Source: an uncultured Spirochaetales bacterium (GTDB lineage Bacteria; Spirochaetota; Spirochaetia; Sphaerochaetales; Sphaerochaetaceae). From it: a DNA stretch of 64,000 bases. The position numbers and the translations under genes were made by a program. The notes under the pieces are model-generated. The model was not told the origin of the DNA. It saw only the letters and a list, made by a program, of their open reading frames with translations, and did not search any database. The stretch lies in contig CALXOK010000001.1 in assembly GCA_944390025.1 (NCBI GenBank), positions 186,001 to 250,000 of the forward strand. Direction: 5' to 3'. The stretch's first letter is position 1; the number at the start of each line of letters is the position of its first letter. Shown here piece after piece: positions 5,829 through 64,000 of the stretch.

Positions 5829-7646
5829 CTAAACATTCTGAAGCTTCTCACTCAGGAGCCTGATTTCCGAATCAATGCTCACCTTCTCGTTAAGCAGCTC
5901 CTTAAGCTCTTCTTCAGTGAAACCTTCAGCCTCAGCCTGTCTGATCTGCATCAGGATAAGCCTTCTGTTCTCCTCTTTCTTTCTCAGTGCGATACGGTCA
6001 AGAATCTCATTTATAACCTCTTCAGGTCTTTCCACTCTGAACTCCGGAAGCTCAAAACTCGTGGCGACATCATTTCTGACCTGATCGTCCGCAATGAGTG
6101 AAAGAAAAATCTCATCGGTCTTACCTTCACCTTCCCTTCTCACGCTTTCCAGGGCAAGGTAGATAATCTGAGCCTCTTTGTCTTTCAGGTCGCCAAACCT
6201 GAAAGCCTTCGTGTAGGACGCAAAAAGATTCCTGTGATTTGCAAACATGAGCATCATGTACAAATCGGGGGAAATGCTTGAAATGCGCAAAGGAGCAAAA
6301 TGTTTTTTTCCTTCCTCGTCAGTACGCTGGGCAGGACGGTATCCCTCCTGTCTGAGCGACTGGGCAAGATCAGAAGTAATCTGCACCTCTCCTACACCGG
6401 TCAGTTCAGCTGTCTGCCTGATATAAGCATCCCTCTCAACAGCACTCGTGGTGGCATTGAGAAAGGGTGTCAGATATGAGACAAACTCAGCCTTCCCTTT
6501 TGGCGTTCTAGTATTATATAAATATAAAGCCCTTGTTACAAGATATTTAAATGCATCTGTTGAAACAGATAATGTGTTTTTAAGGGCTTGAGGGCCTTCT
6601 TTTTCAAGATACTCGGATGCATCCTTGTATCGGTCAAGGGTGAGCACATGGCTCTCAATTCCCTTTTCCTGCAGCATTGTTATTGCCTTGACAGTGGCAT
6701 CACTTCCTGCCTTGTCAGTATCGAAGAGCAGATCGACCCGGTCTGCATAACGCGCAATAAGGCTTGCCTGCTCACTTGTGAACGCTGTTCCGAAGGGCGC
6801 TACAGCACAGGTGATACCGGCCTGATGCAGGCTTATCGCATCGAAGTTTCCCTCACATACAATGGCCCGGTGTTCCGTCCTGATTGTCTCAAGAGCCTCG
6901 TAAAAGCCGTACAGATTATGCTTTTTCGAGTAGACACTGGTCTCAGGTGTGTTTATATATTTTGGCGTGTCGTCACGGAAAGTAAGATCTCTTGCACCGA
7001 ATGCGATGACACGGCCCTGCCAGTTCTTTACCGGGAACATCAGCCTGTTGCAGAAAAGAGGATAAGGAAAGCTCTTCTTGCTGAAAAAGCCGGATTCCTG
7101 AAGGAATTCATCACTGTAGCCTTGTTTCTTTAAGTGACTGTAAAGCCATTTCGGATCACGAGGGGCATAACCCAGATTGAATTTCTCCACAGTGTCCTGT
7201 GTGATTTTCCTTCTGGCAATATAGTCACGTGCATCCTGAGCTTCCTGCCCTGTCATGAGAAAATCATGGAATGTTTTCGCCATCTCCTCATTGAGTGCGA
7301 AAAGACTGTTCTTTATTTCCTTCTTCTTGACATCAAGCTCAGTTTCATTCTCAAGCACGACACAGGCACGTGAGGCAAGGGTCCTTACAGCTTCGGGAAA
7401 AGTTACCTTGTCCATTTTCATGACAAAATCGAACATGCTTCCATGTTCCTGACAGGCAAAGCAGTAAAAGCTTCCTCTCTCAAGGTTCAGCTTGCAGCTT
7501 GGCGTTCTTTCGTTTCCGCCTCCGTGAAAAGGACAGCGGATCCAGAAGCCGTTGTTGCGCTGGAGAACCTGAGTATAAGAAGAAACGACATCAACTATGG
7601 ATAGTTTTGATTTAATTTCTTCAATTGTCCTGTCTGAAAATGCCAA
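5829..7646 (-). CDS. dnaG: DNA primase
   Basis: Synthesises RNA primers for DNA replication. The N-terminal zinc-binding domain shows CPFH at about residue 39 and CFAC at about 62 (CHC2 type). The Toprim core follows, with EGNFDAISLHQAG (about 265-277) and the metal-binding acidic LLFDTDKAGSDA. A C-terminal helicase-interaction region completes the 605 residues, a normal length. The start is TTG at 7646, with GGGG about 7 nt upstream. The dnaG-rpoD order is conserved across bacteria. Confidence 0.97.
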   Translation of the reverse strand: MAFSDRTIEEIKSKLSIVDVVSSYTQVLQRNNGFWIRCPFHGGGNERTPSCKLNLERGSFYCFACQEHGSMFDFVMKMDKVTFPEAVRTLASRACVVLENETELDVKKKEIKNSLFALNEEMAKTFHDFLMTGQEAQDARDYIARRKITQDTVEKFNLGYAPRDPKWLYSHLKKQGYSDEFLQESGFFSKKSFPYPLFCNRLMFPVKNWQGRVIAFGARDLTFRDDTPKYINTPETSVYSKKHNLYGFYEALETIRTEHRAIVCEGNFDAISLHQAGITCAVAPFGTAFTSEQASLIARYADRVDLLFDTDKAGSDATVKAITMLQEKGIESHVLTLDRYKDASEYLEKEGPQALKNTLSVSTDAFKYLVTRALYLYNTRTPKGKAEFVSYLTPFLNATTSAVERDAYIRQTAELTGVGEVQITSDLAQSLRQEGYRPAQRTDEEGKKHFAPLRISSISPDLYMMLMFANHRNLFASYTKAFRFGDLKDKEAQIIYLALESVRREGEGKTDEIFLSLIADDQVRNDVATSFELPEFRVERPEEVINEILDRIALRKKEENRRLILMQIRQAEAEGFTEEELKELLNEKVSIDSEIRLLSEKLQNV

Positions 7647-7699: not shown

Positions 7700-8140
7700 T
7701 TATTTGACAATGGTCACAAGTTTGTCCACAAGGGTGTCCTTCACCATCTTCCTGATTTCACTCTCGCTGTAAAGCCTGCCTTCACCTATTCCCGGACAGT
7801 TCGCTTTCTCGGCTTCAAGAAGAGCCCTGTCAGAAAACAGATATGGCCAGAATGGATAAGTCCTGCACTGCAGTGGCCTTACGGGATATATCCCGCACCT
7901 GCCGTCTTTACCGAGGAACTCACAGCTCAAATCATCCCTTTCGAGAAGAGAAAGCTGGTAATACGTCCCCATATCAACACGCCGGGTATGACGTTCAAGA
8001 AAGTCTTCCTCACTGATTGAGAGAAAAGAGGGAATGTTTTTAAGGTCTTCGGCACTGAGAAAGACATATCCGGCTTCTGAACTGCAGCAGTGAGCACAGC
8101 CCTTGCATGTGAAACAGACACCTTTTGAATACCAGGCCAT
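7700..8140 (-). CDS. YkgJ-family cysteine cluster protein
   Basis: The 146-residue protein has a CxxCxxCC cluster at its N-terminus (CFTCKGCAHCC, about residues 9-19). Further cysteines follow in CEFLGKDGRCGIYPVRPLQCRTYPFWP. This is the UPF0153/YkgJ pattern, a putative metal-binding fold whose biochemical role is not established. GGGGATTGAT precedes the ATG. It is upstream of dnaG on the same strand, separated by the dnaG promoter. Confidence 0.88.
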   Translation of the reverse strand: MAWYSKGVCFTCKGCAHCCSSEAGYVFLSAEDLKNIPSFLSISEEDFLERHTRRVDMGTYYQLSLLERDDLSCEFLGKDGRCGIYPVRPLQCRTYPFWPYLFSDRALLEAEKANCPGIGEGRLYSESEIRKMVKDTLVDKLVTIVK

Positions 8141-8159
8141 ATCAATCCCCCTGAGACTG

Positions 8160-8193
8160 AAAAAGGTCCCGACCTTTCGGTTGAGACCTTTTT
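8160..8193 (-). terminator. Intrinsic terminator after tRNA-Tyr
   Basis: The segment is bounded by AAAAAGGTC and GACCTTTTT, with a GAAA-capped inner stem when read on the minus strand. It begins 3 nt after the tRNA end. The A and T runs on both sides mean it could work in both directions. Confidence 0.7.
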
Positions 8194-8195
8194 AC

Positions 8196-8277
8196 TGGAG
8201 AGAGAAGGATTCGGACCTTCGAAGGCTTAGCCAACAGATTTACAGTCTGCCCCCTTTGACCGCTCGGGAACCTCTCC
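8196..8277 (-). tRNA. tRNA-Tyr (anticodon GTA)
   Basis: An 82-nt class II tRNA on the minus strand. The acceptor GGAGAGG pairs with TCTCTCC (one G-U). The anticodon stem GCAGA/TCTGT encloses the loop CTGTAAA, giving GTA. A long variable arm follows, and the T-loop is GTCCGAATC-like. CCA is not encoded. Confidence 0.95.
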
Positions 8278-8291
8278 AATCAACGTACGTT

Positions 8292-8321
8292 AAATTAGCA
8301 GAAATCACAGATTTTAGTCAA
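8292..8321 (-). promoter_or_regulatory. Predicted promoter of tRNA-Tyr
   Basis: TTGACT (8321-8316), an 18-nt spacer and TAATTT (8297-8292) on the minus strand. The expected start is about 8285, 8 nt before the tRNA 5' end. Confidence 0.55.
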
Positions 8322-8378
8322 CATGAAATTGAAGATAAATCTGATTAATTTTCCATCTCTCTCCACAATAAGGAATTA

Positions 8379-8876
8379 TCAGTGCAGAACAGGCTTCTTC
8401 TTTCTCAGCAGTTCAGATACCTGAGGCGGAACAAGTGATGACACATCAGCACCGAATGCCGCCATTTCCTTTATCTGGCTTGATCGAAGCATGAAATAGT
8501 TAGGATCAGTCGGCATGAAAAGGACTTCCAGGTCATTCATCATCTGCTTGTTTGTCATCGCAAGTTCGAATTCATATCCGAAATCTCCTACAGCCCTCAC
8601 GCCACGAATCATCACGCCCACAGAATACTCGCGTGCAAAGTTGACCATCAGGCCGTCATAGGAAACAACTTCAATATTAGGGCTGCCGGAGAAAATCTCC
8701 TTCAGAACCTCAACCCTTTCCTGGGCTGTGAAAAGGCAGTGTTTTGAGATGTTGTCAGCAACTACGACATAGAGCCTGTCATAAAGCCTGAGACAGCGCT
8801 CTATTATGTTGATATGTCCCATTGTAGGCGGGTCGAACGAACCCGGAAACATTGCAACATGAGTATTCACGCTCAT
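8379..8876 (-). CDS. coaD: Phosphopantetheine adenylyltransferase
   Basis: Transfers AMP from ATP to 4'-phosphopantetheine, the penultimate step of coenzyme A synthesis. The nucleotidyltransferase motif GSFDPPTMGH is at residues 12-21. The RSSQIKEMAAFGADVSSLVPP segment near residue 133 carries the family's second signature. The 165 residues match the family length. Its ATG overlaps the stop of the upstream gene (ATGA at 8876-8873), indicating translational coupling. Confidence 0.97.
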   Translation of the reverse strand: MSVNTHVAMFPGSFDPPTMGHINIIERCLRLYDRLYVVVADNISKHCLFTAQERVEVLKEIFSGSPNIEVVSYDGLMVNFAREYSVGVMIRGVRAVGDFGYEFELAMTNKQMMNDLEVLFMPTDPNYFMLRSSQIKEMAAFGADVSSLVPPQVSELLRKKKPVLH

Positions 8877-61862: not shown

Positions 61863-62747
61863 TCAACACTTTTCCACCACGCGGAGCTTTGCACTCCTGC
61901 TTGGCGGGTTAGACTCACATTCTTCCTCACTTGCAGTCACCGGATGCTTCGTGAGGATTCTTATCTCTCCTGAGCCCGCTCTTTCCTTGAAGAACCATTT
62001 GACAATGCGGTCCTCAAGGGAGTGGAAGGTGATGACAGCAATCCTTCCGGAAGGTTTCAGAACCCTTATGGCCTGACCAAGGGCAGGACTGATCCTGTCA
62101 AGTTCCTTGTTCACTTCTATTCTCAGTGCCTGAAAGGTACGCGTCGCGGGATGGATGCGGGCGTACCTGTAGGCAGGAGGAACAGAAGAAGAGATAATAT
62201 CTGCAAGAGCAGAAGCTGACGTTATGCGTCCCTTCTCTCTTTCTTCCACAATCCGTCTTGCAATCCTTCTTGAGTACCTCTCCTCGGAGTACTGGTAAAT
62301 CAGGTCTGCAAGCGCCTTCTCGCCGTATTCATTGACAATCGTCTCAGCGTCAAGGCTCTGAGACTTGTCAAGCCTCATGTCCAGATTCTCATCACTGCGG
62401 AACGAGAATCCCCGCTGAGACTCCTGGTAGTGGAAAATGCTGATGCCGAGATCGAAGAGAATCATGTCGGCACTCTCACTTTCCGCCTGAGCCAGATAGT
62501 CATTGAACCAGCAGTTAACAGGCTCGAAACGGTCAGAAAAACAGGAAAGCCTTTCAATTGCCTTTTTCTGGATGTCGCAATCCCGGTCAAGTCCGATGAC
62601 CTTCAGCTCAGGATATGCACTGAGGAATGCCTCAGTATGTCCGCCCTCTCCAGTCGTGCAGTCAATCATGACTGGACTGTCTGAGACAGGCTTCAGAAAA
62701 GAGAGAACCTCTTCCTTCATCACAGGTGTGTGCACTATTCTCATCAC
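61863..62747 (-). CDS. rsmH: 16S rRNA (cytosine1402-N4)-methyltransferase RsmH
   Basis: SAM-dependent enzyme (formerly MraW) that methylates C1402 in the ribosomal P-site. HTPVMKEEVLSFL opens the protein. The SAM motif region DCTTGEGGHTEAFL, the FDLGIS segment and RGFSFRSDENLDMRLD follow. ATRTFQALRIEVNKEL and ITFHSLEDRIVKWFF are characteristic. The 294 residues are normal. It overlaps mraZ by 4 nt, the conserved start of division clusters. Confidence 0.97.
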   Translation of the reverse strand: MMRIVHTPVMKEEVLSFLKPVSDSPVMIDCTTGEGGHTEAFLSAYPELKVIGLDRDCDIQKKAIERLSCFSDRFEPVNCWFNDYLAQAESESADMILFDLGISIFHYQESQRGFSFRSDENLDMRLDKSQSLDAETIVNEYGEKALADLIYQYSEERYSRRIARRIVEEREKGRITSASALADIISSSVPPAYRYARIHPATRTFQALRIEVNKELDRISPALGQAIRVLKPSGRIAVITFHSLEDRIVKWFFKERAGSGEIRILTKHPVTASEEECESNPPSRSAKLRVVEKC

Positions 62748-63208
62748 ACACCCCGCTTGTTCTTCGAAAGAGCCTCTCCGAGATCTGAGATTGAAATATC
62801 GTCGCTCTCAAGCAGCTCGTTGTATTTTCCTGTATTCCAGATTTCTATGTAGTTTCCCATACCCAGGATTGTGACCTCACTGCGGAGGTCAATCCCGGCA
62901 TAGGTTCTCAAGGACTGGGGCAGATTCACCCTTCCACTGGAATCAAAGTCCAGAGGCTGAGAAGAAGACAGAAATCGTCTTGTGAACATTCTCGCCTGGG
63001 GTGAGAAAATCTGCATACCGTCATCGCCTGAAATAGCAAAAGAGAAGGTTCTGTCGAAAAAATCAGGGGGAAACAAGGCGATGCAGTTCCCATCAAGTCC
63101 TTTAGTGGCCACAACCTGTGTGCAGGAAAGGAGGGCACGCAGTCTGGCAGGGATCATCAGACGTCCCTTTTCATCCACCTTGTTGATGAACTCACCAGTC
63201 AACAGCAT
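62744..63208 (-). CDS. mraZ: Transcriptional regulator MraZ
   Basis: An AbrB-fold ring-forming DNA-binding protein that controls the division cluster and itself. The two SpoVT/AbrB-like repeats have DEKGRLMIPARLRALL (about 12-27) and DSSGRVNLPQSLRTYAG (about 87-103). The 154 residues are typical. AAGGAG lies 6 nt before the ATG. It is the first gene of mraZ-rsmH-ftsL-murF-mraY-ftsW-ftsQ-ftsA-ftsZ, and candidate MraZ boxes lie upstream. Confidence 0.97.
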   Translation of the reverse strand: MLLTGEFINKVDEKGRLMIPARLRALLSCTQVVATKGLDGNCIALFPPDFFDRTFSFAISGDDGMQIFSPQARMFTRRFLSSSQPLDFDSSGRVNLPQSLRTYAGIDLRSEVTILGMGNYIEIWNTGKYNELLESDDISISDLGEALSKNKRGV

Positions 63209-63223
63209 ACGTACTCCTTAAAT

Positions 63224-63283
63224 TTCCCACAATCTGGGAATATCAGCCACTTTTTACCACTATCTTACCCCATTTCCCCCATT
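63224..63283 (-). promoter_or_regulatory. Candidate MraZ-box repeats upstream of mraZ
   Basis: On the minus strand this stretch holds five GTGG/TGGG cores: ATGGGGG, ATGGGG, AGTGGT, AAGTGGC and TGTGGGA. The first four start 9, 13 and 10 nt apart. MraZ is known to bind tandem TGGG- or AAAGTG-type repeats at about 10-bp spacing. The last core is part of an inverted repeat, TTCCCA/TGGGAA at 63224-63240, between the boxes and the ribosome-binding site. Confidence 0.5.
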
Positions 63284-63813
63284 TCTGAGCCGAGCAAATA
63301 TAAAATTAATATGTTTATTTGAACCCGCCTTTGAAATAATACTTAATATAATTTAAGTTATAAAAATATTTGAATTTTAATATATATTTATAATATAAGT
63401 AATAAATTGTATATTATATTTTAGTTAGATTTGTTTTAAATTTAAATAATCAGATATGATGTGCAAAGTGGGAGCATGTCAGATTTATTAAGACTGAATA
63501 TGAATCGTCCACGATTTTTGATAATCGTCTTCGCTATTTTGTATTTAAAACCGGTTATTGTCGTCTATTCTTTTGTATATTTCCTTGTAAAATCGTTTAA
63601 AACAGCTGAATCCGCTTCGCATTCCTGTAGAAATTGCGAAATTATCCAAGTATTTTGACAAAAATGTCTCTTGAAATGTTTAAATTTTGAATGCCAGCTG
63701 TTCATTTGCCTTCGAAATGTTCATAGAAGTTTTGAACATTTTCTACTTTTTAAACATTTTTTAAACGCATGTAAGCGCGCCCATATAAACTCAACTTTAA
63801 AAAGGAGTTCTAT
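63284..63813. other. AT-rich region between the division cluster and a recombinase gene
   Basis: Composition drops sharply in GC after 63,290. I see no convincing gene. A 65-codon GTG-started frame (63461-63658) is hydrophobic but poorly supported. Small palindromes are present, such as AATCGT/ACGATT at 63503-63516. The last 150 bp hold nested inverted repeats listed separately. This probably marks the border of an accessory element beginning with the recombinase. Confidence 0.6.
63674..63759. repeat. Nested inverted AAATGTTYA repeats upstream of the recombinase
   Basis: Two perfect inverted pairs are nested. The outer is AAATGTTTAAA (63674-63684) with TTTAAACATTT (63749-63759), 11 bp. The inner is AAATGTTCA (63715-63723) with TGAACATTT (63733-63741), 9 bp around a 9-nt spacer. 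All four share the core AAATGTTYA. The inner pair has the geometry of a tyrosine-recombinase core site or a dimeric repressor operator. It lies 55-140 bp before the recombinase ATG. Confidence 0.6.
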
Positions 63814-64000
63814 ATGGAAGTTGATAAGAAATACAAAGCTTGGCTTAAAAGACAAGGCCGAAGCAATTCTACAATTGAAAGCTATTGCACTTCTCTGCGT
63901 CTTTACTTTGAAGCTGGATATCACTGGACATTTGAAGATGCTTGCACATGGAAAGAAAAAGAAATAATGAGAGTCAAACCGGCAACAGTGAATATCCGGA
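63814..64000 (+). CDS. Tyrosine recombinase/integrase, N-terminal part (cut by window edge)
   Basis: A frame open to the window end, 62 codons visible. AAAGGAG (63801-63807) lies 6 nt before the ATG. The residues WLKRQGRSNSTIESYCTSLR at about 10-29 match the SAM-like core-binding domain found at the start of XerC/D- and phage-type tyrosine recombinases. The catalytic domain lies beyond the window, so activity cannot be judged. It differs from both Xer proteins in the window and has an AT-rich, repeat-containing upstream region. It could be a phage, integron-like or DNA-inversion recombinase. Confidence 0.7.
   Translation, partial: MEVDKKYKAWLKRQGRSNSTIESYCTSLRLYFEAGYHWTFEDACTWKEKEIMRVKPATVNIR

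Follow-up and report, generated by a model that had tools for sequence, protein, structure and literature searches.

The window, a 64,000-nucleotide stretch (contig C1, positions 186,001-250,000) of a spirochaete genome of 1.83 Mb in 41 contigs (G000), runs near its right-hand edge out of the host division cluster and into a transposable prophage of Mu-like type, entering it at its right end. The contig extends a further 11 kb past the window, read here as L002, whose coordinates become window coordinates on adding 60000. The features concerned are as follows.

62744..63208, minus strand: the host's mraZ, the open reading frame that opens the division cluster; chromosomal neighbour outside the prophage
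63472..63476, no strand: GAGCA, the target-site duplication of 5 bp, repeated beside the opposite end of the prophage on contig C18
63477..64000, plus strand: right-hand terminus of the Mu-like prophage, which starts at 63477 with 5'-TGTCAG... and runs on to the contig end (L002)
63504..63524, minus strand: TTATCAAAAATCGTGGACGAT, one of the phage-end repeats, 48 bp from the terminus; it probably binds the transposase
63641..63661, minus strand: TTGTCAAAATACTTGGATAAT, another of the phage-end repeats, 185 bp from the terminus; it probably binds the transposase
63663..63670, minus strand: lone GAGACATT upstream of the recombinase gene; candidate site, 3 bp from the first AAATGTTTA box
63674..63684, plus strand: left arm, AAATGTTTAAA, of the outer 11-bp inverted pair
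63715..63723, plus strand: left arm, AAATGTTCA, of the inner 9-bp inverted pair
63733..63741, minus strand: right arm of the inner 9-bp inverted pair
63749..63759, minus strand: right arm of the outer 11-bp inverted pair
63801..63807, plus strand: AAAGGAG, ribosome-binding site of the recombinase, seen directly in the sequence
63814..64000, plus strand: tyrosine recombinase gene, first 187 bp of 777; it ends outside the window, at L002 4590
L002 4591-8504: 13 cores and their cassettes
L002 8505-9066, minus strand: constant part of the fibre gene
Up to L002 15083: further tail genes

Junction of prophage and host

As the first-pass annotation had observed, GC content falls past the division cluster, from about 0.49 to 0.27 at 63.2-63.7 kb. 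This AT-rich border proves to hold the exact end of a transposable prophage. The left end of the element reads ..GGATTGTACA followed by GAGCA and the right end GAGCA followed by TGTCAG.. (63472-63477), a 5-bp duplication. TG...CA ends with 5-bp duplications were seen in three genomes, the duplicated bases being GAGCA in G000, TCAAA in G008 and ATCGC in G065, at both ends in each case. End repeats of the type TTGTCAAAnTnCTTGGA, a motif derived from these very sequences and giving 0.08 hits in each host window, stand 48 and 185 bp inward of the right end and, on the left, 67 bp inward; G008 and a G012 scar show nearly the same spacing.

The phage-less state is adjacency of the two host genes: in most of the relatives that lack the phage, mraZ lies 165-655 bp past the end of a glycoside-hydrolase (amylase-like) gene, so named by eye from its sequence. 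In seven further relatives (G010, G011, G034, G037, G042, G044 and G071) the amylase gene has no mraZ within 1.5 kb. The amylase-like gene of G000 is on contig C18, adjoining an operon that encodes a MuA-type DDE transposase (phrog_310 transposase, 1.2e-69; PF09299) and a MuB-like ATPase (phrog_296 DNA transposition protein, 3.6e-38). The same contig bears repressor, terminase and capsid genes together with a Mu portal gene (Portal_Mu, 6.9e-63) and MuF (Phage_Mu_F, 1.3e-10). The element is a Mu-like transposable prophage with its right end at window base 63,477; a domesticated tailocin was rejected in view of the capsid, portal, terminase and transposase genes.

The right end lies on the mraZ side, always in the one orientation, in G000, G008, G060 and G065; the left end of the G060 prophage was looked for and not found, and G009 has only a broken recombinase and a scar. 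The amylase-mraZ interval (63209-63476 in the window; also L042, L043, L048, L049, L095, L098 and L099) yielded four right ends and two scars. It is likely to be a preferred target of Mu-like prophages, bearing in mind that the baits favoured that site; L055, which has a similar upstream element, appears to be sited elsewhere, beside a radC-like stretch. A vertically inherited locus on the mraZ side is contradicted by the differing 5-bp duplications, by the phage-free relatives and by the mraZ-adjacent recombinases, which do not group in the tree. The phage right end of L042 (G008, contig C13; oriented positions 7315 and 7600) is present as an exact 276-bp direct duplication, either genuine or an assembly artefact. 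An Rfam search of 62.5-64 kb gave no match, and scans for promoters and terminators gave results near shuffle level.

Recombinase, upstream boxes and cassette array

The gene starting at 63814 had been called tyrosine-recombinase-like, and the complete product bears this out. Its 258 residues match PF00589 (3.5e-20), the TGVRISE, CGKGTK, HPHEFR, LLGH and VRYLR motifs are conserved, and when the protein is aligned on XerC-like and XerD structures the catalytic residues line up, the R-H-R-Y set being intact.

The four upstream copies of AAATGTTYA reported earlier are indeed present (63674-63682 and 63715-63723, plus strand; 63733-63741 and 63751-63759, minus strand), and they pair up as described, perfectly over 11 bp on the outside and over 9 bp around a 9-nt spacer on the inside. 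They lie 197-282 bp inward of the phage end, between the phage-end repeats and the start codon. Five copies occur in the window against 1.34 expected (none of 100 shuffles reached five), and four in the 160 bp upstream of the recombinase gene against 0.03 expected (none of 300 shuffles). The nearby GAGACATT at 63663-63670 is the sole copy in the 64-kb window, where 4.7 are expected; this scarcity possibly reflects a mild avoidance of the core by the host, or chance.

The inner pair had been proposed as the core site of the recombinase. That proposal is not supported: the crossover core is GAGACATT, the sole recombination footprint maps there, and no AAATGTTYA array was found to the right, the 11 kb past the window holding no exact copy. 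Diverged clusters of GTTYAA in both orientations precede the recombinase in seven loci, five with the recombinase beside mraZ and two (L046 and L055) with similar upstream sequence, a count made with a motif chosen after inspection. Such clusters are absent upstream of the recombinase in 11 other loci of the same enzyme family. Since the clusters are diverged and precede the gene in only seven loci, a role as operator or at the phage end is likelier than one in crossover. In L055, furthermore, where the array core is TGAGGGGTAT, the boxes are still GTTYAA, and since they do not follow the array core in its changes we read them as a regulatory or phage-end cluster. Most likely, and with moderate confidence, they control expression of the recombinase or belong to the phage-end complex; the operator function offered earlier as an alternative may be correct. 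It seems rather unlikely that the pairs are instead binding or crossover sites of the recombinase itself, acting in autoregulation or as an invertible promoter. A full core does lie only 3 bp from the first repeat, AAATGTTCA resembles the core complement AATGTCTCA minus one base, and seven loci have the clusters ahead of the gene, but the 11 loci that do without them and the constancy of the boxes in L055 favour a phage-end or regulator function.

A cassette array, one of the things the annotation had advised looking for to the right, follows the gene directly: the TGA that ends the recombinase gene overlaps a copy of the 8-bp core GAGACATT, the first of 13 (seven on the plus strand and six on the minus strand) spread over 3.9 kb. 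The cores are mostly extended towards TGAGACATTASTGG, and 10 of the 11 genome-wide matches to GAGACATTASTGG (at most one mismatch) fall in the array. The sites are of about 13 bp, with an invariant core of eight. Many neighbouring cores are in direct orientation.

Between the cores lie 11 intact cassettes, in both orientations, encoding tips of 70-86 amino acids, and one more interrupted by an insertion sequence. Compared pairwise, the tips are 23-54% identical; they begin with DI and mostly end ..LLRIx before a TGA stop that overlaps the next core. GAC ATT (Asp-Ile) stands at all 12 cassette starts, for which interior codon usage would predict a probability of about 7e-9, a figure serving as a guide only as the cassette rows are related. 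Oppositely oriented at the far end is the constant part; it has 186 codons, encodes a phage collar domain (PF07484, 3.7e-10) and ends ..LDAQR directly before a core (...LDAQR/DITG). Among solved structures, the tip profile matches a short tail fibre (9cuy, E 7e-4). Past the fibre gene, more tail genes and a repetitive, probably tape-measure protein continue to the contig end, the latter containing tandem 210-bp (70-aa) repeats (L002 14611-15057).

Recombination footprint, relatives and proposed working

The broken cassette, the twelfth, carries an IS1595/ISXO2-type element (PF12762, 2e-10). The 8-bp repeat TTAATTAT is found at L002 7892 and 6986, and joining its flanks restores a normal 73-aa tip. 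The N-terminal half of the transposase (6436-6985) reads ..GAACTTGATGAGACATT and then AGTGG into a cassette, while the C-terminal half (7900-8504) is joined to the fibre gene, as ..CGCAAAGAGACATT followed by TGTCGAGTCC. An intact copy on contig C9, 97-98% identical, reads GAACTTGATGAGACATTTGTCGAGTCC; the transposase gene has been cut exactly at its own internal GAGACATT. Comparison of the split halves with the C9 copy shows that the fibre site recombined with a chance core in the transposase, the exchange falling within GAGACATT. One past recombination took place at this core; eight bases are, we infer, too short for the usual short-read assembly chimera. The event suggests that eight matching bases can suffice, at least occasionally. 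A signed-segment model requires at least two inversions to restore the insertion sequence, although a single excision plus insertion also suffices; in the solutions listed, the fibre was previously joined to the cassette at 6443. In the assembled arrangement the fibre gene runs into the transposase fragment and ends in an out-of-frame tail, so that this arrangement is probably without a working fibre.

Recombinase relatives (E<=1e-20) are present in 15 of the 139 genomes of the family, the window genome counted. At 11 related loci an array begins at the recombinase stop codon, three of these arrays showing 2-3 sites only, two of them because the contig ends. Recombinase lineages are paired with different array cores, which are uniform within each array:

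GAGACATT: L040 (=L057), L041, L044
GAGGCATT: L039; 21 sites, 21 open tips
AGGGACATT: L045
AGGAACATT: L046
GTAGCGGTTA: L050, L052; second tip type, GYxTLPxG
TGACGGGTAT: L054; second tip type, GYxTLPxG
TGAGGGGTAT: L055, L056; second tip type, GYxTLPxG

Every site opens into a tip in five related arrays (21/21, 8/8, 7/7, 9/9 and 7/7), and in L040, L044 and L046 the constant part is fused in frame to a tip. All 21 cassette starts of L039 encode Gly-Ile, whereas other loci have Asp-Ile, a pattern best understood as a constraint on the DNA rather than on the protein. Some arrays include a gene of 150-190 codons whose product resembles tail-fibre assembly proteins (recombinase-oriented coordinates: L044 8877-9446, L045 9874-10446, L046 1666-2244, L055 2949-3404). 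Scans of viral contigs with the recombinase and with a tail protein found no relatives, and annotated phages and plasmids yielded only distant ones. A 72% identical recombinase and a similar tail gene occur on a contig (L058, CALUYR010000340.1) binned as Gastranaerophilales, which is either mis-binned or indicative of a host range beyond spirochaetes.

At this locus the structural marks of a tyrosine-recombinase shufflon of the Rci/Rin kind are present: an enzyme with an intact active site adjoins an array with 13 sites in both orientations and a gene with a constant N-terminus, and exchange has occurred at the sites. We consider it very probable (about 0.9) that the right end of the Mu-like prophage carries a tail-fibre shufflon worked by the tyrosine recombinase on GAGACATT sites; most likely the recombinase flips fibre-tip cassettes and so changes which cells the phage binds. 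One site lies in the fibre gene, after the constant collar-domain N-terminus, and one at the start of each cassette, where it overlaps the TGA that ends either the cassette before it or the recombinase gene. The recombinase would pair two oppositely oriented cores and invert the DNA between them. Inversion at the fibre site would place a new tip in frame (AGA GAC ATT), all other cassettes staying behind a stop (TGA GAC ATT). The fibre side supplies AGA (Arg) and cassettes end in TGA (stop). A phage population with many receptor-binding tips would result, and lysogens and phage stocks would become mixtures of fibre types. That this particular enzyme catalyses the exchange is suggested by its linkage to the array and its covariation with the core; the tips presumably bind receptors, and switching may still be active. 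Against this explanation stand the out-of-frame fibre gene of the assembled arrangement and the many neighbouring direct sites, which should permit deletion unless only inversion is allowed.

The same direct sites are the starting point for the improbable alternative that cassettes leave the array as circles cut out by the recombinase, which then puts them back, the array growing and trading cassettes between phages beyond what inversion alone allows. The split insertion sequence, explained by one excision and insertion against at least two inversions, and the large arrays of up to 21 cassettes would suit such a process. However, the survival of long direct arrays is what rare deletion would lead one to expect, both orientations occur among the cassettes, unlike those of integron arrays, and R64 and Rin show that inversion is enough. 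Nor is the enzyme of the IntI type, the full recombinase scoring 55 bits with integrase_gron against a cut-off of 265 for integron integrases. By their length of about 13 bp and their invariant core the sites do not resemble attC, nor are the cassettes independent genes in a single orientation. Tandem cassettes do exist here, but an integron reading is not supported, as the enzyme falls far short of that cut-off and each cassette is the promoterless 3' end of one fibre gene. Of the earlier suggestion that a mobile, integron-like or DNA-inversion system starts here and lies mostly outside the window, the mobile and inversion parts stand and the integron-like part is not supported. Equally doubtful is the idea that, besides flipping tips, the recombinase gathers them from other phages by excision and reinsertion through the shared 8-bp core, with transposition aimed at the one interval beside mraZ.

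In the tree the recombinase groups with PsrA-type invertases and not with Xer. Recombinases with arrays fall into two supported clades; a third, adjacent to them, consists of hsdS-linked invertases and includes Streptococcus PsrA and Treponemataceae-like genes between hsdM/hsdS-like ORFs; these ORFs were identified by eye, and long branches leave the deep joins unsure. The neighbours at the window locus are phage tail genes rather than type I specificity genes. In genomes of the same class, L075, L076, L078 and L079 have recombinase relatives between hsdM/hsdS-like fragments in opposite orientations and are probably phase-variable type I restriction loci. Two solitary relatives among ordinary host genes (L051, G066 contig C23; L053, G035 contig C19) group with the hsdS invertases and have no array at the recombinase stop codon. 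That the enzyme is simply the prophage integrase, and the repeats its attachment site, is scarcely credible: a tyrosine recombinase does sit at the prophage border, but the prophage has its own MuA-like transposase, MuB-like protein and 5-bp target duplication, L044, L045 and L047 encode a separate lambda-type integrase-like protein alongside the same module, and the recombinase falls in a clade apart, beside DNA invertases.

Comparison with known systems

The shufflon of R64 with its recombinase Rci, acting on pilV of IncI plasmids, was reportedly described by Komano in 1999 (cited in PMC11868660). It concerns a plasmid pilus adhesin, with 19-bp sfx sites and seven alternatives. Both there and here a tyrosine recombinase adjoins several invertible segments, each an alternative C-terminus for one constant N-terminus.

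Fibre switching near the right end of the phage (Mu) and among multiple alternatives (Min) is likewise familiar from Mu, P1 and p15B. Gin, Cin and Min are, however, serine recombinases with an enhancer and Fis, and here a tyrosine recombinase takes that place. A gin-driven fibre shufflon sets which isoform infects (PMC13418256). Phage Mu and other transposable phages share with the present element the MuA- and MuB-like proteins, the portal of Mu type, MuF, end repeats at intervals, TG...CA ends and a 5-bp duplication, but here the early operon and the fibres occupy opposite ends, separated by the repressor, and the amylase-mraZ interval is hit repeatedly and in one orientation. By sequence the nearest studied relatives are the PsrA-type hsdS invertases, at about 32-37% identity and also with short inverted repeats; PsrA inverts DNA in vitro (PMC7096588). 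They shuffle restriction-specificity genes, whereas here tail-fibre tips are concerned and no hsdS gene is present.

The closest published case, likened by layout, is the Rin shufflon of Bifidobacterium prophages, in which a phage tyrosine recombinase shuffles the C-termini of a receptor-binding protein (PMC6109161). In both systems a tyrosine recombinase without an arm-binding domain adjoins an array of alternative receptor-binding-protein C-termini, with a short asymmetric repeat at each start and the constant N-terminal gene at the other end (PMC6109161). The Rin core, rix TTCCCTAACCC, is of 11 bp compared with the 8-bp GAGACATT, and Rin has five alternatives against 12 here and at least 21 in a relative (PMC6109161). 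A spirochaete host, a Mu-like vehicle and a core overlapping stop codons further distinguish the present case.

No paper on such a system in spirochaetes was found in the freely accessible literature searched. The host phylum, the Mu-like vehicle, the array size, the core spanning a stop codon, the lineage-specific cores and the natural cryptic-site event are new. Recombinase lineages with different cores within one family provide a natural series for studying how an arm-less tyrosine recombinase recognises short sites and how it avoids deleting cassettes, and the split insertion sequence is a natural experiment on minimal site matching. Tyrosine-recombinase tail-fibre shufflons are thereby extended from Bifidobacterium to spirochaete prophages, of both Mu-like and integrase-bearing types, and the arrays, one relative having at least 21 cassettes, are larger than the published examples compared here.
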